Origin: Utricularia gibba
Lineage: Eukaryota > Streptophyta > Magnoliopsida > Lamiales > Lentibulariaceae
Reading direction: 5' to 3'
Assembly: GCA_002189035.1 (NCBI GenBank)
Contig: NEEC01000252.1
Coordinates: 1 to 29,006 of the forward strand
Length of the DNA stretch: 29,006 bases
Position 1 is the stretch's first letter. Every line of letters begins with the position of its first letter. Positions 1-18,444 of this stretch are shown one piece after another. The notes under the pieces were generated by a model. The model did no database searches, was not told where the DNA came from, and worked only from the letters and a program-made list of their open reading frames with translations. The translations under genes and the position numbers were made by a program.

Positions 1-1
1 T

Positions 2-1863
2 GCAGATGCCAAAATGTGGAAGCTGGCGCTTAAAATTAAAGAAGACATGGAGATGCACGGAGTCATTCCCAATGCCATCACATGGTCTTCATTGATCACT
101 GCTTGTGCAAATGCAGGTCTCGTTGAACAGGCCATTAAATTATTTGATGAAATGCTCCTAGCTGGTGTGAGGCCAAATTCTCGATGCTTCAATGTCATTC
201 TCCATGCGTTCGTTGAAACTTGCCAATTTGATCGTGCCTTCGGACCTTTAAATGCTGGAAGGATTTTGGGTTCCGAGTGAGAATTGGTGATGATGTGTGG
301 AAAAAACCAGCAAATTAATGAAATATGATCTGATGGAAGTATCAATGTGTCACCCCTCATCCTCAACAGTTAATGTTCCTTCCAACCGACTACTACAACA
401 TACAACATTCTGATGCAAGCCTGTGGTGCTGACTATCACCGTGCTAAAGAGTTGATGGAGGAAATGAAGAACGTTGGCCTTTGTCCTGACCGTATAAGCT
501 GGTCAATATTAATGAATATTTGTGGGACTTGGGAAATGTTGCTGGCACCATACAGGTAAATTTTTTCTTTGTTGAAGAAAAAAGTGTCGTTGATGTAGAA
601 GCATTGCTATATGGGATTCTATGTATCCAAGAAAAGTATCTCACTCTTGCAGATCCTGAGATCCATGCGTGAAGATGGTGTGGAACCTGATGTCATCGCA
701 TACACAACGGCTATCAAGGTGCGAATGCTTGTTCTTGAATTAGTATCCCAGTTATAAAGGCGGGAGTGGTTTTGTTGGCGTACATTTGAATACAAGGTCA
801 TTTCTGGTGATCTGAAGGATTAAATTATGAATCTGCAGATTTGCGTGAAACACAAGAACCCAAAACTTGCGTTTATGCTTTTCGGAGAGATGAAAAAATA
901 TCACATAAAACCAAATGTGGTAAGATTTTATGCCTATTTTTCTATCCATGTCGGCATCATCAATGTGTAAGCTGCCGATGCTTAAATTTCAGGTTACTTA
1001 TAGAACAATGCTCAGAGCTCGTAGTAGATATGGCTCCCTAGATGAAGTACAGCAATGCCTTGTTGTGTATCAAGATATGAGAAAAGCAGGGTGGGTATGC
1101 ATGCTACCAAGTGTCTCTTTACTGCATGATGAGATGAAACCACAGCATGTGGATGAGTGATAAATGGGTCGTTTTTTCACCATCCTTCTGAAGGTACAAG
1201 CCTAATGACTACTACCTCAAACAACTGATCGAAGAGTGGTGTGAAGGCGTGATAGAAAATGAAACTTCAAAGAACGGCCAAGTTCAGCGTAGCAGAGCAG
1301 AGTCTGGTTCTCGAAGTGTGCTACTTGAGAAGGTCGCCGAGCACCTGAAGGATAGAAATGCCGAGAACATCTGCATTGACCTCCGAGGTGTCACCAAGGT
1401 ACATAGTCTAGAGTAATTGTTGGAAGCAGGTTATTTTCCTGAAGAAGCAGCCCTAATGATAGTGTTGAGTCAACAGGTGGAAGCACGAATTGTTGTCCTT
1501 GCAGTTCTGAGGAAGATCAAAGAGAAGTATAGTAGGGGTTCCTTGATAAAAGAGGACGTCCTTATCATACTTGGGCAGCATCAGGATGGTTTCAGGGATG
1601 AAGGATCTAAAGACGAAGATGGAGTCAGGGAAGCGGTGACTTCACTGTTACGGCACCATCTGGGGCTTGAGGTTTTTGCGGCAGGAAAGGAAGCCAACTT
1701 GGAGAAAGAAGGCCCGAAGTCGGAAAAACGCAGCAGCAGACAGAATGAATCCCCAAAATCATCGAAAGCTTTTTCCAGAAGGCCTGCGGTGCTTCAAAGA
1801 CTGATGGTCACCAAACACTCCTTGAATCGATGGCTGCAAAGAAAGAGCGTCCCACGCCATTAG
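2..1863 (+). CDS. PPR-SMR protein, 3' part, upstream exon disrupted (At5g02830-like)
   Basis: This is the C-terminal part of a pentatricopeptide-repeat protein with a C-terminal SMR-like region; the 5' end lies outside the window. PPR proteins bind organellar RNA, and by family knowledge PPR-SMR proteins act mainly in plastids or mitochondria. Segments I can place: 2-555 (an exon or exons with broken frame), 653-718, 839-919, 993-1090, 1194-1398 and 1477-1863. All introns from 556 onward are GT-AG and phases agree. Visible PPR motifs include GVIPNAITWSSLITACANAG, YNILMQACGADYHRAKELM and GVEPDVIAYTTAIK. The SMR-like part begins IDLRGVTK and continues EARIVVLAVLRKIKE. The stop is TAG at 1861-1863. 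Exons from 653 on are clean. The segment 240-535 carries two stops and several frame changes (see findings), so the locus may be a pseudogene or may contain sequence errors. The closest remembered homologue is Arabidopsis At5g02830. Confidence 0.8.
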
Positions 1864-2113: not shown

Positions 2114-4067
2114 TCAGGGAGACTCGCTGCCTCGCGGGGAAGCTCCATTTTCACCGCCATCAACCGAGGCCCTGTTATGCCCAGGACTAGGACTCGGACT
2201 GGGGCTGCCACGGCGGCCATTCGCGGCGTAAGGGCTCTCGTTATACCTCCGACCTGCGGGGCTGCGGCTGGTCTCCTTGGGGCTCTCACCATAACCATCT
2301 TGCTCTTCCGTCTCCATTTTACCTCTCACGGGAGGCGAAGCACTTCTCTCCAACACAACATCTCTATCGGGCGTCACACTGCGCTTCCTCGAGTCGTAGG
2401 GAGAAGATCCACGCCTTTTTGGACCAGGGCTACGATCAACAGGGCTTCTTGATCTCCTGTCCTTGTAATCAGAATCACGCCCTCCTCTCACAGGTGAACG
2501 ACTAGATGAGAGAAAACGCTGTTACCCTCAGCCTTCAGACACAACCCCCCCAACATGCACCACACAAGGAAAAAGAACAGGGTACCTATAGCTTCGGCTA
2601 CGGCTGAAACTGCGGCTTCGGCTGCGGCCCCGGCGAGGAGATCGAGATCTCGCGGGTGAACGCGAATAGCTCTGACCACGTCCACTGGAGCACCATTCAA
2701 CCGAACAACAATTAGCATCAACAAATGCAAAAACTGCAGAGGTGTCCGGTGAAATTGCAGCAGACAGCCTACAAACCTCAGTTTCTTTGGACTATTCTGG
2801 CAGTTTCTTTCGACGTGACCCCTTTCCCCGCAGCGATAGCACTTATTTTTCCAGTCACCAGCCTTGCAGTCTCGAGCCCAATGACCGTCAATGCCACAAT
2901 TGAAGCAACGTCCTGAGCCTGGAGCAGGACCTCTTCCAACATATTCCTTAACTCCTCCAGGCCCTCGTGGCACCTGAGTGTAAGAAGCAAATCCCGAAAA
3001 TGCCACCAGGAAGAAGAATAACGGGGAATGAAACCAGCCATGCAGAAAGAAAGAAATGCAGCAAGCGGAAAACAAAAACGCTCACTCCTCTAGCAAACTC
3101 CACAGTAATACGACGGCCATCAACATCTCTCCCATCCAGGTTGTATCTAGCATCATCAGCATCTCTTGGATCACTGAATTCCTGCATGATTACGGAAATG
3201 CAAAACACACGAGAACCTCGATATTTTACAGATCCAGAATGCAACCATACCATGAAAGCATTTAATAAGGCATTCACGATCAAGCGATGAGATAGGGTGG
3301 TGAAACATACAACAAAAGCGTAGTCTCGCTTCATGTCCACGTCTCGCACTCTGCGCAAATGGTTTCCAGAAAAGTAAGGCATCATAACTACTTACGTACT
3401 TCATTGGATCATACTTGGTCCTCAAGACGAACTAAACACCAGTTTGATTGTTCCAAATTCCATATAAACACGCAAAGATAACATAGAAAATCGCCAAAGA
3501 CTTCTAACAATCGGCAAAGAACCACCAAGTCCACCCTCCCACCATTGACAATCAGGTCAGGGAATCTCCACCCTCCCACCATTGACCACCAAGTCAGGCA
3601 AAGGCTCAGAACCTTCAACAGAATCATAAAGTCAAAACAAAAGAGCCCAGGAGATTTTTGGCCTTGTTCTTTGGTTAGTTTCAAAAGCTTAGTTGCGGAT
3701 TATTTTTCTAGAAGTTGGGGTAAACAATACAAAACAAAACTAATAGTATAAAAATTAAAACTTGCGCCGTTTATTGGCTTTCTCAAAAAGCATCGTAAGA
3801 TGCAAGCGAAATCCACGCTTGGAGAATGGCTAGCTCTTACTCACATTTGGGATACAAAAATAAATTACAAGTGCTACGGGAAGCAGTCAGCAGCTTCATG
3901 ACTCTCTACTTATCTGAGCAATACGGAAATTCAAGAATAAACAAACTTGTGGAGTACCTGCCATATCTACTGAAAACGTGCTCCAGATCTCGCGAGCGAG
4001 TCCTTGAGGACAAGTGGCCGACATAGAGACGGGTAGTACTTCCATACCTATCTTCGTAGCGAGGCAT
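2114..4067 (-). CDS. RS2Z32/33: RS2Z-type serine/arginine-rich splicing factor (RRM, two zinc knuckles, RS/SP tail)
   Basis: This encodes a plant-specific SR protein that acts in nuclear pre-mRNA splicing. CDS exons on the minus strand: 4067-3958, 3350-3311, 3181-3086, 2973-2777, 2684-2586, 2501-2114. All introns are GT-AG; the total is 930 nt, or 309 aa. It starts [13 protein letters not shown]2 is TRLYVGHL (about residues 12-19) and RNP1 is RDYAFVEF, spanning the exon 2/3 junction (about residues 45-52). Two CX2CX4HX4C knuckles follow: [14 protein letters not shown] (about 105-118) and [14 protein letters not shown] (about 127-140). Then comes an RS region ([19 protein letters not shown]) and an SP-rich acidic tail ending in SPRGSESP. 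The order RRM, two knuckles, RS is diagnostic of RS2Z. Length and structure fit the family and the frame is intact throughout. RS32 and RS33 paralogues cannot be told apart here. The long first intron (607 nt) is typical of the autoregulated intron in this family (family knowledge). Confidence 0.95.
3351..3957 (-). other. Long first intron of RS2Z, with a tandem duplication
   Basis: This 607-nt intron splits the RRM between codons for YGR and [10 protein letters not shown]. It holds a 20-bp perfect direct repeat (3530-3549 and 3567-3586, period 37) next to a second, looser repeat around 3490-3526. Plant RS2Z genes are known to make alternative transcripts from a long intron within the RRM. 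Which alternative sites are used here cannot be read from sequence alone. Confidence 0.6.
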
Positions 4068-4384
4068 TCTTTTTCTGTCAATTTAAGATTTAGGAGGAAG
4101 AAGAATGAAATAAAAAGCAAAATGAGAATCAGGCAATTCTATCCCCAAACTCTGGCAGGAAAGAGCTAAACTAAGGAAATCGTGAAAACAAGAAACGCGC
4201 ATCACCACTTAAGAAGAATAAAAGAGATATGCGAACTACAGCCACACAAAAAAAGGAAACTTCAAATACACAAGTAATTTAGAGAAAGGCTAGAACAATA
4301 TAACAGTCGCGGCTCGCGAGAGTTCAAAAGCAACCGAAGCACGAAAACGCGTACCTTCAGGGGCGAATTCTCGATCTCGAGCAG

Positions 4385-4555
4385 AACCCTAATTTTTTTT
4401 TTCTACAAACAAAACAACTAGCGGAGGGAGAGCCAGACCTCCAGGACTTGAATGAGGTGCCTGCCTATTCGACGGCGAAATGATTGATAGATATATAACG
4501 CAACTATGAGCGAAGACTGGGCTGGGCCAACTAATCCGACCCAAGCACAGGCCCA
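4385..4555 (-). promoter_or_regulatory. RS2Z promoter: telo-box and three site II elements
   Basis: Upstream of the RS2Z start there is an AACCCTAA telo-box (4385-4392) and three TGGGCY/RGCCCA site II elements (4518-4523, 4523-4528, 4550-4555). Telo-box plus site II is the known arrangement in plant genes for translation and RNA processing active in dividing cells. The motifs are seen directly; the role is inferred. Confidence 0.55.
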
Positions 4556-4560
4556 ACAGA

Positions 4561-5820
4561 CCTAACGGTATTCATTTTTGAACATATTGATATTCTATTA
4601 GTAGTATACCTTACTTTTAAAATTTATTTACAAATTAACTTTATATTACATCGGACATTGTTAATGAACATATTATAATATATTTTTAAATAAATATAAT
4701 ATTTAATTTCAATAAAAATAACTTATGATTATATTCATTCTTAAATTTCAAAAAATATATGTTTTAATTTTATTTTTAAAAAAAATTGATTATTTTTAGT
4801 ATATATTACAAAAAATATTATTTATGATGTTTTATAACATTATGAATAAATTATACATGTTATTTATGGAATTACAATGCTTTTTATAAAATGTTTATAT
4901 CCATTTTAAATATATAAAATGAAATATAAAAATCATATCGATTGATTAGCATTTAATGAAAAAATTTAAATCTTAATTGATTGGTTTTATTTTTTATGTG
5001 AATATTTATTTTAGTAAAATTGCTTAATTTTATTATAAAAAAACAAGAAAGCTTACCTCAATTGGTTAAGCATTTATTTAGATCTCAAATTTTAGTATCA
5101 ACATATATTTTTCATATATATATAATTATTATTTTGAATTATGTGTGGTTATTTATTTAGTTTTTATTAATGATAGGGGTGTCTTGGAAATTTAAATGGG
5201 ATATACATTTAGGTAAAAGTCTGTCTCAATGAACAAGAACAATATCAAATTAAAAATGAATATACTTATTTAAACATATTTGGTGTGTGTGATGTAAAAA
5301 TGAGATTTACATACATATTATTTGGATAGGAAAGATCAATCACAAATAATAGAGTTTTACTCAATGCTCTTATAAGGAATAATGGATTTCATATTATTTG
5401 AGATATATTCTTGTTTATTGTTGTTGTATGAAGTGTTTCAATTTATCAAAATCAAAATAGCTTCACTTATTTTTCAATTAGATTGTCAAATTGTTTCAGT
5501 AAGCTATTATCTATGTAATAATAGTTATATGAATTATGAAGTATTCATTATATCCTATTATGAAGTTCGATAGCAATTGAAATAATTTACCAATTAATTT
5601 AAAAATCTTAATAATGTTGCAAATTATTAAACAAATGGTATTCTTTAAAAATAAAAATACAGTAAATAAATATGAATGTTTTTAATTTAATTATTTTTAA
5701 TACAAAATTTTTTAATTTAAATATGGAAAATGTAAATTTCACAAAAGTGTTTCCTAAAATCTGCGCCCCGTGCAAATTATGTATTGTCTTTACCAAGGAA
5801 ACGTCAACTTCAAAATCTAA
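4561..5820. other. AT-rich intergenic spacer, no gene seen
   Basis: This is about 1.26 kb of very AT-rich DNA with an abrupt left edge next to the RS2Z promoter. No conserved reading frame, RNA gene or TE protein domain is visible. Short frames at 5382-5573 and 5608-5796 look like chance AT-rich ORFs. A weak tRNA A-box-like match lies at 5054-5065. Confidence 0.6.
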
Positions 5821-5919
5821 GCATTGGTTAAACTATTAAGGAGCAATGGAGATGACGTTGCACACACCAAACAGGTGCTGAAGAAGGAGAGGGCGTCTAG
5901 AGTTCATTGTTCTTGGGAT

Positions 5920-8892
5920 TCACCGCGTCCCTCGGAAAACCCAACTCAACAACTGGAGAATCCTGGCAGCGAAGGAGGGTCGCACAGGACAAGAGGAATC
6001 CGCAGCAGAGCAAAGTAGATTGTAGTCGTGCTTCAAATGAGGGGCAGCTATCCTTTCCTGGCGGGGGCATTGGCATTTTTGTCAACCAGTGGAAACAAAG
6101 GGGGATAGAGGTTTGAGCAAGTTGTGTCCTACCTTGAAAACTTCAAAGGGACAAAAGTCTGAATCGCCACAACCCTGCACATGGACACACAATGGAGAGC
6201 ATTAGCTCTGGGGCATCCGAAATAGATGTATCAGGAAGCTCACCGCCAACGGGATTGGGCGTTCGTTGTGCAGCACTTGCACAAAATATTTGTTGGAGTT
6301 GTTTGCTGAACATCTGTACAATACCAGCATGCTATTTCCCGCAAATGGGACGATGGTACTTCCATGCCAAGCTCTCTTTTGCGGTGGCTGGGGAGGTATG
6401 TTTAATGGCTGTTCCCGCAGTAAAAGTTCGAACTCTGAAGCTCCACAAGAAAATATATCAGTGGACAGAAATGGCAAATCAGCAAAGAGGAAAACATAGG
6501 GAAGGTGTCAATCATGCTTACCAGGTTGATCAAGAAACAGTCCGATCAAACAGGAAAATGGGAGTAGTGTTTCTGCATGAGCGACCCTTATCCTTGCCTT
6601 CTCATGGTTCCTAGCTGCATTTCCATCTATCAATGTGGAAAACAAAAAGGTTGTGCAATGAAAAATCTCATTTCATGGGAGTAAAAGTCTAGGGAATGCC
6701 CAAAAATTCAACTGTCTAGGCAAATCAATGCGGTGGGAGCTAAACACAAGGAAAGCTGAGAAAAGGAAAAAAAAGATGGGAGGAACCGTGCCTTCACTAG
6801 CATTCACCGCTTGTTCCATTGAATGAATGACATCTTTAAGCAATGCAACGCCCATCCGATAATTTAAGGAATTACCATAACCCTTCAATATGAAGAGCTC
6901 AAGATCATCCGTCCACTCAAGCATCCTAACCTGCAAGTCTTACAATCAAGCCACGTTTTAAAGAAGAGTAGCATGCTAGTCTCCATTAGAGAATAAAAGC
7001 CACGAGTTAAATGGACGTCCATTTGGCAACAATACCGACCTGAATGTGTTATCATAAAGAGAAAGAAAATAAAACTACCTCATTAGGATTAAAAAGAGCA
7101 CAGGCTTGATCGGTTGTGTTCAGTAAAGAAGCTTCCTGGGATAGATGGAGCGAATAATTAAAGTTGGATACAGATAAGAATACAATGGAAAAAAATATGA
7201 GGCAACTTACCTGCTTACATAGATACCATAGGGACGATACATCATTTCCTGTGACATTCATGCCCCAACGAGAAAAAAATGCGTGGGCTATTTCATTTAG
7301 AACAGGTAGTTTCAGATTATTGACAGAAGGTTCCTGGCTCTTCCTGAATGTCTGAAAAGTCATCGCAAATCTTAGCTTCTTTACAAAAGTACACAGATTT
7401 CACAACTTGAAGGAAATATTTAATGACACGATTACCTGCTGCAATTAATATATTATGAAATGGGATACCTTGTAGTTTTGGCAGCAATCATGGAATCTCA
7501 GCATTATGTCACTGGCACGACTCTCACTGATAACTGCAAAAGCACGATGATGTTCTTGCCCAAGACTTCCTTTGCCTCTAAAGAGGCCCATGCCAAATGC
7601 TACAGCACTAGCTGATGCTCGAGGAACCTTATTACAACCATACCGTTGAAGGGAATTTGGATTAGAAAATGAAGGACAATTAAACGAAGGGGACAAGAAG
7701 CAACAGAAAAGGTTGATAAAATAGCTACTAGCAGCCTGGGTTTCCATGAAGAGGACTCCGGACAAAATTGGTGAATACATATATTATACTTATATAGTTT
7801 ATTCAGTAACTAAGGCTACAAAATTATGTATGCAAGAAAAGCTCTATGATCAAATCCAAACCTGGGTGGCTATAATTGGATAGGTATCAGGATGATACTC
7901 CTCTTCAAATAGTTCCGTAAATCTTTCTATGGTTCTAACACCTAGCTCAAACAGCTCACTTTCTCCTGCGCTAGTCAACTCTCCACCACGGTACATTCTG
8001 GTCCAAGGTGACTTCCATCCAAACAGCCAGCCGGGAATCAAATTTGAGTTTTTGTCCACATTTTCTAAAAGGACCTCCAGGCGGGTAGCTAAAGATTCCA
8101 ATTCTTTCAATTTCTTTTTGGTGGGAGCACGAGTGCCATGCCTTGCCTAAAACCAACCGATCAGGTTACCATAATGACAGGGACGCAGAAGCAGAATGGG
8201 CATAGCAAATAACTTGGTAAGCCATATCACTTTAAAAAGCCTTAGGTTTACATCAATAATAGAAATAAGGCAATAAAAACAAAACCTAGTATGGCATCTT
8301 GGATGGTCCAAAAAAGGGAAAAAAAACTCAACTGTAGATGCCAAAATAGCAGAATAAATGATTTATAACAATAGAAGCTCAATTAAAAAAAAAATGAAGT
8401 CATGATTACCAAAAGGTTTAAATGCATAGGTTTGCAATAACTAGGAATACTTGAAGGCACAAATTCCCTCCCTGGGATGCCTTTTGCGGCATCATATCTG
8501 CAAAGTGTTCAAGAATGTCATCATTATGGGGTTTTTTAACCAAAAACAAGAGTAGTCTTCACTGGGAACCTGCACTGATTTCTCTACGAAACATAATAGC
8601 GACAGTGTAGCACCCCAAAATCTAACAACTCAAGCATACTAAACCCACGGAATGAAAAGAGGTTCAAGGGACAGGAAACCTGGTCACGGTTGATAAGTGC
8701 AGGCGAACATCAAAAGAATCCTCGGCTCTGGCGAGAATTCCCATGGCACAAAAGTAGGAAGAGTAGGATGAACCTGCAGAACACTTTGTACAAGGAGTTA
8801 ACCAGGTAATTTTAGCACAATTTATGCAAATAATTCAAGAACAGAAGTTAAAAACGCAACACAGAAACACAATTTTGTAAAATACCTGCCAT
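5920..8892 (-). CDS. MINPP1-like: Multiple inositol polyphosphate phosphatase / histidine acid phosphatase (phytase family)
   Basis: This is a histidine acid phosphatase that hydrolyses inositol polyphosphates; plant members normally enter the secretory pathway. CDS exons on the minus strand: 8892-8886, 8773-8680, 8497-8410, 8146-7862, 7627-7469, 7351-7211, 7135-7079, 6930-6798, 6614-6522, 6440-6244, 6174-6133, 6057-5920. Phases agree and the total is 1434 nt, or 477 aa. The catalytic motif RHGTRAP is at about residues 65-71 and the proton-donor motif HAET at about 334-337. Other family blocks are DVRLHLSTVTRYD, PRASASAVAFGMGLF, LEWTDDLE, LKGYGNSLNYRMGV, YFVQVLHNERPI and CPFEVFK. The exon ending at 6798 uses donor A|GTGAAG; a GC donor four bases further on would also fit. 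The N-terminus is odd: only ATGGCAG is coding in exon 1, and a hydrophobic stretch in exon 2 lies in another frame (see findings). The C-terminus ends FRGTR, with no ER-retention signal. Confidence 0.88.
8680..8773 (-). other. MINPP exon 2 with an out-of-frame signal-peptide-like segment
   Basis: In the enzyme's frame this exon reads SSYSSYFCAMGILARAEDSF and then DVRLHLSTVT. In a neighbouring frame, 8772-8746 reads FILLFLLLC followed by HGNSRQSRGFF, which looks like a signal-peptide core. That frame hits TGA just after the TTTT run (AAAA at 8712-8715 on the plus strand). Removing one T from the run would join the hydrophobic stretch to FDVRLHLSTVT. Confidence 0.6.
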
Positions 8893-8960
8893 ATCAGCTG
8901 AAATAAGCTCAGGACTCTCGAGAGCGAGTCCTCCTTGGATATAATGGGTTACGCAGAAAC
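8860..8960 (-). repeat. Partial duplicate of RS2Z coding exon 1 and adjoining intron
   Basis: On the plus strand this segment resembles 3935-4036, the RS2Z first coding exon plus the start of its intron. TACCTGCCATATC is identical across the splice donor in both. Further on, TCTCGAGAGCGAGTCCT here matches TCTCGCGAGCGAGTCCT there at 16 of 17 bases, at nearly the same spacing. Orientation is the same. In RS2Z the end of the exon reads RYG in frame; here the aligned bases include an in-frame TGA for that frame. It now forms the splice donor and start codon region of the MINPP gene. Confidence 0.6.
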
Positions 8961-9491
8961 GGATAGGCTAGATCAAGAGAGACGTATGACTCCGGGAAGA
9001 GAACCGAAGGTTACAGAAGAAACCAACGGATTTAGCGTCAGAATGAAAGAAAATCTCAATCCGACAGCAGGCTTAATTTTTCCGTAAAAACAGAGAAGAC
9101 GGACACCTGGGCAGCTCCGGGGAAGACGCCAATTTTCATGGAAGTGCAATGGAGGGAGAAAAATTAGAATTGTCGCGCTGGAACTTGACGGGAGGGGGGA
9201 GCGCAGATGGCTGCTATGCAGTCTCAACACATGGGCCGCCCAACGGTGAGTGAATGACGGCCGACTGTTCTCTACATGGGAAAATTGGCCCAATAGGCCT
9301 GGAAAATGACAGGGTGCGTGGAAAGAAGATCACCAGGACGTGGATTCGACTCGCACTGCCGTCGACCCGCGGTGTCGAGACCTTGAGAGAGTGGACGAGG
9401 CGACCGTCAACAAGCGATCGTGTTTCCCTCCCTCCAAGAAAAACTCATTTACAAGCCAGCAGAAGATGAAGCGTTCATTCTCTATACCTAC
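8893..9491. promoter_or_regulatory. MINPP upstream region and TRM 3' flank
   Basis: This gap lies between two minus-strand genes. It should hold the MINPP 5'UTR/promoter and the 3'UTR of the TRM gene. GCCCA/TGGGC motifs occur at 9232-9237, 9238-9242 and 9287-9292. No TATA box stands out. The short frames here match nothing I recognise. Confidence 0.4.
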
Positions 9492-12400
9492 CTAATGCAT
9501 AAAGTGGATGGCTGTTGTTGCCCGGCTTCCTCTTATTGTTCTCCGGATTCCGTTTGCTGTGACTAAAAGGCAAACCCAGATACTTTTACGCAGACAGACC
9601 TCGGATATAACCTCATCTATCAACAACTTCTCAATGTCCACGCCTACACCGTCGATTTCTCCCTTGACATCTGACCACTGCATCTCCTTGTCCAATTCTC
9701 CTTGTGATGCTTCCACTTCCCACTTGGAAAAATCCCGGCTGATCAGTTTGTCGATGGCATCACCAACTGCTTCTTTTTCCCGTCTGGAATTCATCCCCCC
9801 TACCAATTTCGGCATCACCCACGGGTAAGAGTCAACATGGTCTCGGAAGACATCTAGGAGGTCTGCATTTAACATGTCAAAAAGTAGCTTCCTTTCTGAC
9901 TTCGACCCACTTGTTCCAGTCCCGTACTTCTTCTCAAGTTCGTCGAACAGACCAGCGTCCAGAGGGTTCTCTGGATAGTGCCAGTTTGTTCCTAAGAGGC
10001 TAAAATCCGTCTCTTCAAGGCCTGAGCCGATCAGCACGTTCACTGCGTAAGTCGTCCGCCAGCATTCAGATTCTTCTCCCAAGTTGCTTTCAGATGCTAC
10101 GCTCGTGGTCTCTTCTTCAACGGGAGCAATGGTGGATGCAGCACATGTACCAGACTCCAGCTTCAAAAGCTGCAAGTGTCTTCTTAGTTCTATACGAGAA
10201 AGATGAGGGTAATGGTTACAACCTGCTGAATTTCTGTCCCAAATGCTCCCTAACCAACTAGCATGCGAGAATTTCGAAGAGCTCCATACAGATAAGGTTA
10301 CTCTGTAAGACAAGTTCCATACCATGTAGTTCGGCGCTGACTCTTTCAAAATTTTCACAGGTTGATATATACTCCCGAGACGGGATTTCAAGAACTGAGA
10401 CTGGGCTTGGATGATCGGCCTCTTTAGAGCTCTCAGATGAATCAGGCTCGGTTTTTCGGCATCGTGAGGGAGGAGAACTTTGGGCAAATGTTCCCTGGGG
10501 AAGTTCCTGGAGGATCACAAACACATTTTAACAATCAATCAACAAAGTAGATGTAGATCCGTCATACCACAGTAACTAATACACATGACCCTGCCTGATG
10601 CTATGTAAACCAGAAGCTCACTTTGTAGAAGCAAAGATCTAATTCAAACCTGGAGATTGGAGTCTTTGCAGCATGAAGGAACGCACTCAGGATTGTCAGA
10701 TAACTGCTTTTCTGGTATGTTGGGTGCTGAAGGGTCTGCTTCACTGGCATTTAGATGCCGAAAAGAACGAGGCTTCTTGCTACAAAAACTTGAATTTTTA
10801 TACAAATTATTTTCTATGTCATCGCATTTTCCTTTCGCCTCGTTTTTACCAAAGTGCACCCCACTGCTGTGCGGCAGACGCTGAGTTCCAATCATCTCAT
10901 TTTTTATATGGTTTATCTCACCTAAAGAAGTAGGCTTTGATATTGATCTAGATGAATTCAAGCTTTTGCCATCTTCCCAACCATCCTTGCTACTGATGCC
11001 CAAAGGAGCATGCTGTATAGAGGCTACACTACAGCTAACAAAAGGGTTCTTCTTTGCCACATCAGAAGTGCTTTCAGGAGTTAAATCCATTGGTCCAGAA
11101 TCCCTTTCCGAGAAGGCAAGCGTTTCAGCTATTGTGCTGCCACTGTTAAACATCTCCAACTCCTGATATTTCCGAGAACTTTTCAGTTTCCCAGATAACC
11201 ACTTTGTATTTTGCCTACTCATTGATGGTTCTCCAGAACGAGAGGATGAGCATGCATGGAGTACACATTGGTCAAGTGAATGTCGGTAGGGAAATCTAAA
11301 AGGTTCAAACTTGCTTCCTGAATCACTTTCAATCGACTCAGATGAGCTACCATCTCCGACATATCCACTAAAAGCGGAGGAAACTACCTCAGCAGTTTCA
11401 TCCTTATACTCTCTCATTCTCGAAGCAACTTGAAAGGCAATCTCACCAGCCTCTCTAGGCATGCGCCTTAGCAAACCCATTTGATGAGATGAATATCTTT
11501 CCGTCGAAGTTTCCTTTACTGATTCAGTTGTACATTGATTTCTCCTTACATGGTAGTTATGCAGATGGCCATAAGGCACATCAGCTAACGAGCAGGATGC
11601 CCCTGCATTCCTGATCTTCCCCAGGTTCGGCTTTAGCACCACAATCCTTGTAGGTAGTGTAATCCTATCAACCCCTTTCTCGAACGAAACAGTGAGCGAA
11701 TTATCACTAGAATCAAGGAGAAGGCCATCTTTGCGCATCAGGTGAGTAGCGGAGTGTAACATACCAGAGAAATGCCTCCTTGATCTCCTAGCTTTTGAAT
11801 TTCTTTCAGTTTCAGGGCTCAAATGTTTTAAAACTGTGATAGGGCTCCCAATAGAAGCCTGGCCATCATCCTGGAAACCAATTGAATGCCTTGGAACCAA
11901 AGAACCTGGTTGCTTGAAAATTTTCTGCGGTTTCACTTTGGCACAGTCAAGCATATCTAACTCCCCATCCAGATCACCTGAGTCTTGAAGCATTTCGTCA
12001 GTTGAAAGTTGCTCAGCATCAACATCATGATCCGCCAGAAATGAATTCGTGTTCCACCTTGAAGAATACACACGATTTATGCAGTGCGGCCCTCCCATAT
12101 CCTCATGCACATCCTTAAACACCGGTTGGTTCGTTGAGCTTCTATGATTGATTAGGTTCTCAAGAAAATGGGGGCTCCAATTAGCAGAATTTGAAGCATT
12201 CCTCTGTAGATAGAAGTCCGGTGATTCCTGTTGTTTTCTGTGAGCATTGCTAGGAGATGGCAATCCTTCATCGCCCATTAACCGCGCAATAACACTCTGC
12301 GTTGTCCTCTTGTGTTGAATTTCCTTGGACATTTCCTCTGCTAAAAGCTTCCTCATTGGTAATCCAGTGGCTCGGGCACTGGGCCTCTTCCTCATCTCGA

Positions 12401-12515
12401 GGGTGTACTGATGAAGCCAAAACTGATTACTCGAGATTTCGATAAAGCATCATGTTCTCAGAGTGAAGAGAAGTTGAGAAGTGCATACCATATCATCTCT
12501 TTTGCTAACATCCAT
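9492..12515 (-). CDS. TRM (TON1-recruiting motif) family protein with C-terminal DUF4378
   Basis: This belongs to the plant TRM superfamily, whose characterised members recruit TON1/PP2A complexes to microtubules and affect cell shape and division-plane placement. CDS exons on the minus strand: 12515-12489, 12407-10650, 10506-10323, 10189-9492. Introns are GT-AG and phases agree; the total is 2667 nt, or 888 aa. It starts MDVSKRDDM and continues with RATGLPMRKLLAEEMSKEIQ and VIARLMGDEGLPS, the N-terminal DUF3741-associated (VARLMGLD-type) motif. The middle, about residues 70-650, is low-complexity and serine-rich. DUF4378 covers roughly residues 697-860, with YAVNVLIGSGL, NPLDAGLFDELEKKYG, ERKLLFDMLNADL and the terminal LLIDEVISEVC block. 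The closest remembered Arabidopsis relative is At3g53540. The frame is fully open. The motif reads LMGDEGLP where LMGLDGLP is usual. Which TRM subgroup it belongs to is not certain. Confidence 0.87.
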
Positions 12516-13655
12516 ATAAGAATGTGAATCTGCAGACAGCTTCGGAGTAGATTTGTGGATCTCGCCCCGTCGGATCCCTGTCAAACACCCAAAATTGTAC
12601 ATCATTCTCTTTCCAGACGAAGCAAGGTAGTAATATTCAAAAGCACTTCTGTTCTCATGGCCACATTAGAAGAACTGCAAGAAATAACCTTCAATGCCGA
12701 AGGCACTTTTCGACTTTCCGTACGGAGCTTTCCTCATTTCCTTTTTGTGAACTCACTACAACAAGCAAAGAAGCCGGTATAGCCAAAGAAAGATGCTGGT
12801 ACCCACAGCCCACCATTTACATTACTAAAAGAAAAGCAGAGAAAGTGAAGAACCCTTACCGATGCTCATTTGAAATCAGAAATTTCGAGCAAGCGAGCCA
12901 CAGACGGTGCCACCTCGAAAACCGTCGCCATCCAGAATCCAGCTGATGTCATTCACAGATCGAGATCTTCACCTACACAAAACAAAACAAAAAAAAAAAA
13001 AAAGAGTAATGAATGCGCAGATCCAGGTCCTTGGAAACACACTGCGCTCCACCATCCTGTGTAGAGAACAAGGAAAGAGAGCAAGCCAAGTAGAGAGAAG
13101 GGCTAGCACACATACCATAGGAGTAGCGGGCCTTCTCAGCAGATGACAAAGACGAGGTACGCACACACATCCCCACCTATAGAAGGAAAGAGGAAAGAGG
13201 CACGGAGAGCATGTGAGAGAGAGGAGTGGAGCCGGTGGGCAAGGCGGGGGGCGGGCGGGCAAGCATTAATGGCGGAACTGGACTCCCCCAGTTTGAAAAC
13301 TTTCCTCCTCACTTTCCCACATTTGAACATGAAAATTCATTGCATTTCTAACGCTAAATGGAGCGGCATATGCACGTGGCATTCCTATGATCAGCCACGT
13401 ATGACAAACGTAGAAACCCGGAGCAGCAAGGGGTTACTCTTGTTCCTACAAAAAAATGAAAACAAAAAAAAGGGCGTTGGACTTCGTACGGGCAGAGATG
13501 CCCCGGAGGTGGGGGCGGGGCCACCGCTAGTGGCTGCCAGTTTCGAGAAATAATGCGAACTAGAGAGAGAGACTGGTACAGAATAAACAAGGAACCCCCG
13601 TCCAGTAGCGGGAGAGCCTAGGCCTTTAGTCTCACTAGAAACAAAACAAGACGAC
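12516..13655. other. TRM 5' flank and intergenic region, no gene seen
   Basis: This is upstream sequence of the TRM gene, probably holding 5'UTR exons and the promoter. It includes a long A tract ending near 13003 and a purine-rich stretch around 13180-13260. No conserved reading frame is visible on either strand. Confidence 0.45.
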
Positions 13656-13700
13656 GAGCCGAGCCGAGTCTAGCCTAGCCGAGCCGAGCCGAGCCGAGCC
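13656..13700 (+). repeat. GAGCC pentanucleotide microsatellite
   Basis: Short tandem units of GAGCC run here, with variant units (GAGTC, TAGCC) in the middle. There are nine or so units, the last five nearly perfect. It lies between the divergent TRM and RPL23A promoters. Confidence 0.8.
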
Positions 13701-13881
13701 GCTCTTAATGAATAATGTATGTGGGTAGGCAACAGCAGCTGGAGCCGGAGGTATGTTTTGTTTCATTTCATTCGGTAGGAGGAGTTTAGTAGGCGATGTG
13801 AATGAAGCCAGAGACCACAACGAGCCAGACGACACGTGTAGCATAAACAAAAAGAGTTAGCCAGCACGGGAGTTCTGTTGC

Positions 13882-13988
13882 GGCCCACGGGAGAAACAGC
13901 GCTTCTAAGTAGCCCACATCGATTCTTCAGAAGCCCATTCACATGACCTGGGCTTTAATGATGGGCTTGGTGTTTCAACAACTATAAA
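13882..13988 (+). promoter_or_regulatory. RPL23A promoter: five site II elements and a TATA box
   Basis: Five TGGGCY/RGCCCA site II elements lie at 13882-13887, 13911-13916, 13932-13937, 13949-13954 and 13962-13967, followed by TATAAA at 13983-13988. A pyrimidine-rich start (TTCTCTCTTTCAC, around 14034-14046) follows at a suitable distance for transcription initiation. Dense site II motifs are well known in plant ribosomal protein promoters. All motifs are read directly. Confidence 0.75.
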
Positions 13989-16513: not shown

Positions 16514-17304
16514 CCTCAATATTAACTTCTCTAGAATTAGTGATTTATGGACTACTCCAAATTATTCTCCCATTTCTTGAAATTTGGTGATAAAGAGTCC
16601 TTTGGTGAATATGTCAACTATTTGATTTTCAGTTGTGATCAGCTTCATATCAATCGTTTCCTAGAAAATCTTCTCTCAAACAAAGTTATAATATACCTCA
16701 ATATGTTTAGTCTTTGCATGGAAGATGGATTTTCGAAAAAAAAAAACAAACAATCGATCTATTGTCACAAAATACAGTAGCTCGATTTACCGATTGATGT
16801 AAATCTCTAAGTAACCATGCTAACCAAGTGCTCTCTTGTGCAGCTGTAGTAGCAGTTCTATATTCTGCTTCGATTGTTCATAAAGACACCGTGGGTAGTC
16901 TTTTGTTGCATCAAGATATACCTCCAGATCCAATTTTGAACGCATATCCAATAGTTGATCCTTGTATCACAATTTTCTGCGTAATCACAGTACCTTATCA
17001 CATGCAACTTATCCTCTTTACGATACCAAATATCATAATTTAAAGTACTCTTCAAATAACGCAGAACTCCCTTGATTGCTTCAAGATGAGGCTTCTTGGG
17101 TTCTTGCATATGCCGACTAACAACACCTATTGCATAGGATATATCTAAGCAAGTGATCGTGAGATAGATAAGACTTCACACTAGTTGTCCATACAGCCTA
17201 GTGTCTTCTAGATTTTTTTCTTTGACGCCACTTAATTTAGCTCTTGACTCTGTTGGCATAGCCAATGGTTTGCACTTTATCATATTTTAAGTTTTCAGGA
17301 AATC

Positions 17305-17307
<3 letters not shown>

Positions 17308-17347
<40 letters not shown>
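17308..17347. repeat. (TA)n microsatellite inside copia RT
   Basis: About 20 uninterrupted TA units interrupt the reverse transcriptase remnant. Confidence 0.95.
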
Positions 17348-17351
<4 letters not shown>

Positions 17352-18211
17352 CTCATTTCTTCTTTAGTTCTCTTGACTTCAAATTCCAAAAAATGCTATA
17401 ACTCGTCTAATTCCTTCTTGTGAAATCTCACTAAGAGATTTTTTAATTTATTGAATTTCTTCAATGAAATCTTCAGTTAGAATTAGATTATTGACATAAA
17501 CCAAGATCACAGCCAATTTCTTCCCTATGAACTTAATGAATAGGCTTGGATCTAAGGTTGCCATTTTATAATTATTGTGAATGAGAAACTTACTTATCTT
17601 TCCATACCAGGCTCTTGGCACTTATCTAAGGTTACCATTTTTACATTTATTTTTCAGAGCTTACATCCTTTAATTGCTACTAAGGTTATAAGAGCTCGGG
17701 CTGTAGTTATTTTAGCCATCCGGCTAAAAGTTTCATCGTCGTCTAGTCCATATTATTGAGAAAAGTCTCTTGCAACCAAACAAGCCTTGTACCTCTTGAT
17801 TTTATCGTCTGGTTTAGTCATTATTTAATAAACCCATTTGCAAGAAATAGGCTTTATTTCTTTTGGTTTGGGCACAAATCCCACATTTGGTTCTTTTAAA
17901 GACCATTCATTTCTTCTTTCATTGGTTTTTTCCATACTTCTTTCTTAGCGTCTTCTTCATAGATAATAGGCTTATGTATCTCTTCAAGTATTGCAGAATC
18001 TGTATACTTCGGATTTGCTCATCTTTCTCTTGAAGATCGACATAGGGTGGAGGGAGTTCTTCCAATTCTTCTTGCTATTGAGAGTTTCCTTTTTCTTAAT
18101 GATGAACTCTTGTTTGCCATGGATTTTTCACACTCACTTAAACTATAGCATAGAACATTCTAAACCTACCATATTTAAACTCCTGTGTGCTCTAGTATAC
18201 TTTTTCTACCA

Positions 18212-18444
18212 TGTTGCTATAGTATGGTAGAAGTAGCAAATATGGGAGTTCTTCTTGATGATTCCCAAATACTTAATCTCTTATTTATACTGCAGCATAA
18301 AACATTTTAAATAATTTTGGACTCATTATTTTTATACTATTCTATATCCTTTTAGATTTCTTGAGGTTTACCGTCATCTTTAAAGATTCTAGACTTTTGT
18401 TAGACTAGGTTGGGTCTTAATTTTTCAGCACTGAGCTCTTATCA
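18212..18444 (-). repeat. Copia 5' LTR
   Basis: This is the partner of 16214-16513. On the minus strand it begins TGATAAGAGCTCA and ends CTATAGCAACA. It is followed directly by TGGTAGAAAAAG, which keeps the first bases of an initiator-Met primer binding site (TGGTATCAGAGC). The two LTRs are clearly diverged, with indels, so the insertion is old. Confidence 0.65.

Follow-up and report, generated by a model that had tools for sequence, protein, structure and literature searches.

A piece of roughly 70 bp from an RS2Z splicing-factor gene of Utricularia gibba has been copied to the front of the phosphatase gene next to it, and there it probably (at a rough probability of 0.6 for the reading as a whole) serves as the 5′ exon and carries the start codon. 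The window (the whole stretch of DNA analysed, 29,006 nt) is the entire contig C57, and its features are collected in Table 1; the genome searched comprises 100.1 Mb in 516 contigs. A near-identical second copy of the region lies on contig C451 (about 3448267-3475376), in four aligned pieces of 99.0–99.8% identity. The copied piece spans the border of RS2Z coding exon 1 and the following intron, splice donor included; it now lies about 4.9 kb upstream of its source, with unchanged orientation, at the 5′ end of a MINPP-like phosphatase gene. About 70 bp of genomic sequence can be assigned to the copied piece with confidence, and by alignment it may extend to 100 bp.

Table 1. Positions in the window of the two genes, the copied piece and neighbouring features.
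Feature	Position	Strand	Remarks
Gene presumed to be of pentatricopeptide type	1-1863	+	
RS2Z gene, source of the copy	2114-4067	-	RRM_1, zinc knuckle; lower end is the open frame limit
RS2Z first coding exon	3954-4067	-	Donor preceded by GGCAG; RRM_1 match (piece joined by eye)
Copied part of RS2Z	3934-4004	-	Last 51 exon bases and 20 (perhaps 26) intron bases; from alignment
Phosphatase gene including proposed start	about 8892-5897	-	
Phosphatase exons 2-12	5897-8773	-	Histidine phosphatase branch 2, MINPP-like; PF00328, E 3.6e-53; lower end approximate, mapped from C451
Phosphatase exon 2	8680-8773	-	Leader and EDSFDVRLHLSTVTR; mapped from C451 3466653-3466745
Contested T run	8750-8753	-	Four T in C57 and three in C451; the leader's frame depends on it
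Proposed intron 1	8774-8885	-	112 bases, GT...AG; 31% GC, 45% T
Proposed phosphatase start ATGGCAG	8886-8892	-	Part of RYG codons in RS2Z, here one frame over
Copy	8863-8932	-	47 bases resembling the RS2Z exon end, then 23 resembling the intron start; two TGA in the RS2Z frame; from alignment
DUF4378 gene	12449-9492	-	
Ribosomal protein L23 gene	14438-14890	+	

Sequence comparison confirmed that the resemblance of 8863-8932 to the RS2Z exon 1/intron border is real. The 13-mer TACCTGCCATATC, which the original prediction had placed at both exon 1/intron 1 borders, is present in the window at 3955-3967 and 8883-8895 and nowhere else. A second block (TCTCGCGAGCGAGTCCT at 3988-4004, TCTCGAGAGCGAGTCCT at 8916-8932) is identical at 16 of 17 bases and has the same orientation, as had been described; it starts 33 bases past the start of the first block at both places, so the spacing is identical rather than almost so. 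The splice donor was likewise found to be conserved as claimed, with GATATGGCAG/GTA (the slash marking the exon/intron boundary) at both places in the window and also in the C451 copy. When 3934-4004 and 8863-8932 were aligned jointly in the same orientation, 56 of 73 columns were identical, with 12 mismatches and five gap columns. The score of this alignment was 54. No score above 32 arose in 2000 dinucleotide shuffles and none above 27 in 4985 stretches of 201 bases drawn at random from this genome (15 of the 5000 draws contained the RS2Z exon of contig C414 and were removed); the next best unrelated place in the window scored 26. The pairwise likeness is therefore better than that of shuffled sequence and stands above all controls, which upholds the idea that the border of an SR-protein exon was duplicated locally, together with its donor, and lies immediately ahead of the phosphatase. 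A 48.2-bit match between window 3941-4004 and the C451 fragment would be expected about 5e-5 times for a query of that length in 2 x 100 Mb (calculated by hand).

The two sides of the donor were also scored separately against 215 other AG/GT sites of the C451 region. The exon side (45 bases) scored 24 against a maximum of 9, and the intron side (26 bases) scored 9 against a maximum of 8, a narrow margin. Chance, or convergence on the splice donor consensus, is an extremely unlikely source of the resemblance. The 13-mer taken alone is weak evidence (0.61 matches expected at two or fewer mismatches, and at least two found in 10 of 100 shuffles), but the observed scores were reached by none of the 2000 shuffles, none of the 4985 real stretches and none of the 215 AG/GT sites, and at these sample sizes the explanation is ruled out. 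Because the likeness runs across the donor into the intron, it points to a copied genomic piece and not to convergence on a donor.

Within the introns the likeness is short. Loose gapped alignment of the whole introns, with the RS2Z intron taken from four bases past its GT, scored 32.0 for the fragment against the adjacent RS2Z (equalled by 1416 of 2000 shuffles) and 44.5 against the C414 gene (equalled by 661 of 2000). As these values are not above shuffled sequence, the case for intron homology is confined to the first 26 or so intron bases, with their score of 9 against a null maximum of 8, and one 10-mer, which counts against the preferred reading. The 10-mer, TTCTTGAATT, lies in both introns (3928-3937 and 8832-8841), at +17 in that of RS2Z and +45 in that of the phosphatase, and has three matches in the window against 0.28 expected. 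It may represent a conserved intronic element. The third match, at 732 (+), is elsewhere in the window, and the 10-mer is also present near the start of the C414 RS2Z intron, though the two RS2Z intron starts otherwise differ. A genome-wide search with the 76-base fragment (E up to 10) returned the fragment's own two copies and did not list RS2Z, which likewise weighs against the preferred reading; the absence of that pair is attributed to the first-look step of the search, which scores first-look candidates only.

The adjacent gene gave an RRM_1 match on an 82-residue piece (joined by eye) and zf-CCHC matches in two stretches, i.e., the single RRM and two zinc knuckles of an RS2Z SR protein. 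Together with an RS-rich tail, recognised by eye, this agrees with the RS2Z subfamily of plant SR proteins as described in PMC3173450. The phosphatase-side copy departs from that description in encoding no RS2Z, its RS2Z frame reading RTRSRES*AYFS*YGR, with two stops. On this sequence evidence the direction of copying is from RS2Z to the phosphatase, because the RS2Z copy encodes part of the RRM and the phosphatase copy has two stops at the same place.

A genome-wide DNA search with the RS2Z exon returned three matches, namely both copies of the adjacent gene and a second RS2Z on C414, which shows 89.5% identity over 124 bases of the first coding exon. A match to the DUF4378 gene lies about 9.4 kb ahead of the C414 RS2Z, and that segment is therefore probably homeologous to the segment in the window. 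Between the two C414 genes no phosphatase remnant was detected at E up to 1, and the family search listed PF00328 on C57 and C451 only. In the C414 interval from the DUF4378-gene match to RS2Z (3074500-3084300) there are long open frames of other genes or unnamed reading frames but nothing matching the phosphatase, so the two segments appear to have lost or gained different genes. The copy scored 54 against the adjacent RS2Z and 31 against the C414 gene; for the intron starts, the scores were 9 (copy and adjacent RS2Z), 5 (copy and C414) and 3 (adjacent RS2Z and C414), with a null mean of 2.8. Since the C414 intron start differs and the copy is nearest to the adjacent RS2Z, the comparison, made without an outgroup, suggests that the copying was local and took place once the two RS2Z genes had split. 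The fragment is present on C57 as well as on C451.

The likeliest route would be the repair of a break with filler DNA templated nearby, as inferred from the size, distance, orientation and lack of element ends. The copy is short (about 70–100 bp), its source is 4.9 kb away, and no transposon ends were found around it in 8500-9400. Filler DNA of 1–131 bp, templated by sequence near the break, is described in maize, where it went along with the origin of a chimeric gene (PMC2686159). That p2/p1 case shares with the present one the nearby-copied repair filler and the chimeric gene, and its filler sizes include the present copy; it differs in that the filler is intronic and the gene halves were brought together by a deletion, whereas here the copied piece would be a 5′ exon with an ATG and a donor. 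Parts of one gene used with the exons of another are also described for 310 fusion genes across four Oryza species (PMC9199173) and for fragments carried by CACTA elements in soybean (PMC1947982). The Oryza fusions involve larger gene parts and the soybean fragments were carried by a transposon; the present case would involve some 70–100 bp of a neighbour, read in another frame. Filler DNA and numerous plant fusion genes have thus been reported, and the kind of event is known. Literature searches found no paper on Utricularia gibba with MINPP, and no RS2Z chimera among the matches listed.

Two other routes were weighed. What is left of an ancient tandem copy of the entire RS2Z gene would also be nearby, in the same orientation and inclusive of intron sequence, but this origin is improbable: no other RS2Z piece was found when the window was compared with the C451 stretch covering 3893-13957 (E up to 0.01), and the remaining minor matches lie in AT-rich sequence. 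Still less credible is delivery of the fragment by a Pack-MULE, CACTA or Helitron transposon. Elements of this kind transport pieces of genes and may give rise to chimeric ones (PMC1947982), but no inverted or direct repeat of at least 12 bases was found in 8500-9400, the source is a nearby gene in the same orientation, and the genome-wide search listed no additional copies of the fragment. Transposon capture was rejected for want of terminal repeats or element ends within 8500-9400.

The recipient gene was modelled on C451 with 11 exons (2-12), in a single open frame from FILLFLLC to the stop. It contains a complete PF00328 (His_Phos_2) domain (E 3.6e-53, profile 4-354 of 354), which places it in histidine phosphatase branch 2, and its 18 matches include solved fungal phytases and MINPPs. 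From the open frame, the complete domain and these relatives, it is likely to be a working gene. Presumably it is a MINPP and not another branch-2 phosphatase. The donor after exon 8 (C451 3468633) has GC in place of GT (AAG/gcacgg). At the 3′ end of the gene (about 5897-5932), the protein ends in NPKNNEL with the C451 base at 5932 and in FRGTR with the C57 base; NPKNNEL is similar in appearance to an ER-retention tail.

The copied piece is likely to be used as the 5′ exon of this gene. It is homologous to an exon of another gene, and the copied splice site is retained. The proposed intron 1 (31% GC, 45% T) resembles nine other introns of the gene (37% GC, 41% T), and it has a strong acceptor, tgttctgcag/G. 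The copy has lost its RS2Z coding and kept the exon edge, the donor and an ATG. Under the preferred reading, transcription would begin upstream of it, the copied donor would be spliced to exon 2 over the 112-base intron, and translation would start at the ATG that spans the RYG codons in RS2Z. A possible further donor, in phase 2, was seen by eye within the copied intron.

Alternatively, the copy may be inert or an untranslated leader, with translation starting at the exon 2 Met (MGILARAED) or in an exon further upstream, in which case the copied ATG would open a short upstream reading frame or lie outside the mRNA. That the internal Met could serve as the start counts against the preferred reading; its ATG stands in a GCCATGG context, and the simple splice from the copied donor is out of frame with the C451 sequence. 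This alternative is nevertheless rather unlikely, as the internal start would leave little of the hydrophobic leader (best hydropathy over eight residues 0.67, against 2.34 for the leader with four T in the contested run and 3.47 for that with three) and the copied donor is intact although the RS2Z frame has decayed. Furthermore, the copied ATG (C451 3466534) is the only one between C451 3466287 and the exon 2 Met at 3466681, a stretch of roughly 390 bp.

The frame of the copied exon with the recipient coding sequence depends on the contested T run. The original prediction joined ATG GCA G to 8773, and the frame of this proposed splice is open on C57 and closed on C451. With four T, as in C57, ATGGCAG/GTTC is open, giving the N-terminus MAGSSYSSYFCAMGILARAED and, for the simple splice from 8886 to 8773, the predicted product MAGSSYSSYFCAMGILARAEDSFDVR. 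When the T at 8753 is missing, as in C451, the simple splice is out of frame and the reading closes after 31 residues. With three T and the acceptor AAAG/TG, the predicted product is MAVFCRFILLFLLCAMGILARAEDSFDVR. It counts against the preferred reading that C451 puts the proposed splice out of frame and that the alternative restoring the frame needs the weaker AAAG acceptor.

This latter arrangement is a variant in which the copy is still the 5′ exon, joined to an acceptor 10 bases upstream (AAAG/TGTTC; 8783), with three T at 8753, giving MAVFCRFILLFLLCAMGILARA/ED, a fuller secretory leader. Its unbroken hydrophobic run ends in ARA, which resembles a cleavage site under the usual cleavage rule. 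C451 does have three T, and one of the 11 acceptors in the gene model (exon 5) is also AAG. The variant is possible, if doubtful: the TGCAG/G acceptor ten bases on looks much stronger, and conflicts between the contigs elsewhere speak for four T. To judge these, 14 places of conflict between C57 and C451 were compared by eye with open frames, and in all eight events that the frame could decide the longer version was right. The longer version was that of C57 at 12210 and 12174 (decided together), 11675, 9992, 20611 and 2656, and that of C451 at 309 and 380. Conflicts at 9597 and 5932 lean to the longer version (C451), and those at 10667, 3250, 3381, 14220 and 1728/1746, which decide nothing, were left out of the count. 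The eight of eight favours four T at 8750-8753; the better signal peptide of the three-T leader speaks for three, or for three as the ancestral state followed by a frameshift that the new start tolerates. The notion that C451 is simply the better sequence was rejected, as the frame-decidable conflicts favour the longer version on either contig.

Just before exon 2 (8774-8793; C451 3466633-3466652) lies TTGTACAAAGTGTTCTGCAG, which would start the leader in the three-T frame if its TTG were ATG. As a speculation, this TTG is possibly the ancestral start codon, lost once the copied ATG took over. On the minus strand at 8912-8931, within the copied exon, is the near-palindrome GGACTCGCTCTCGAGAGTCC, which could fold into a hairpin some 20 bases ahead of the proposed start codon.

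If the transcript is confirmed, a repair-sized copy of the edge of a neighbour's exon gave a gene its start codon and donor, in a different frame, and the case would show how little sequence suffices for a new first exon. The case also shows that a claim of this kind can hang on one disputed homopolymer base of an assembly. A further reading, that the copied exon edge is one at which RS2Z proteins regulate their own mRNA and that it put intron 1, the start codon and the secretory leader of the phosphatase under RS2Z control, is very unlikely. If true, the level of splicing would decide between a leader-bearing and an internally started phosphatase. According to PMC11514476, the tomato proteins RS2Z35 and RS2Z36 bind the mRNAs of their own genes, with a preference for UGGAG/GGAG in exonic sequence next to introns. 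In the RS2Z exon of the window, a TGGAG ends 23 bases ahead of the donor. This motif has been lost from the copy, which has a GGAG ending 45 bases ahead of its donor and lying in part beyond the aligned stretch. RS2Z control of the phosphatase is thus a weakly supported possibility.

Alignment of C57 1-29006 with C451 3446300-3475600 contained 90 events. Of these, 37 were counted as substitutions, some of them adjacent to indels, and 53 as indels; 40 of the indels involve a single base, many in homopolymers. In view of such indel conflicts, gene models from either copy need checking. A stretch of about 1.87 kb at 16539-18407 is present in C57 and missing from C451, and this large insertion in one contig only suggests that the two contigs are haplotypes. 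Within it, 16858-17175 looks by eye like a Copia reverse transcriptase (no Pfam match was obtained), and the insertion also contains a perfect inverted palindrome of 38 bases.
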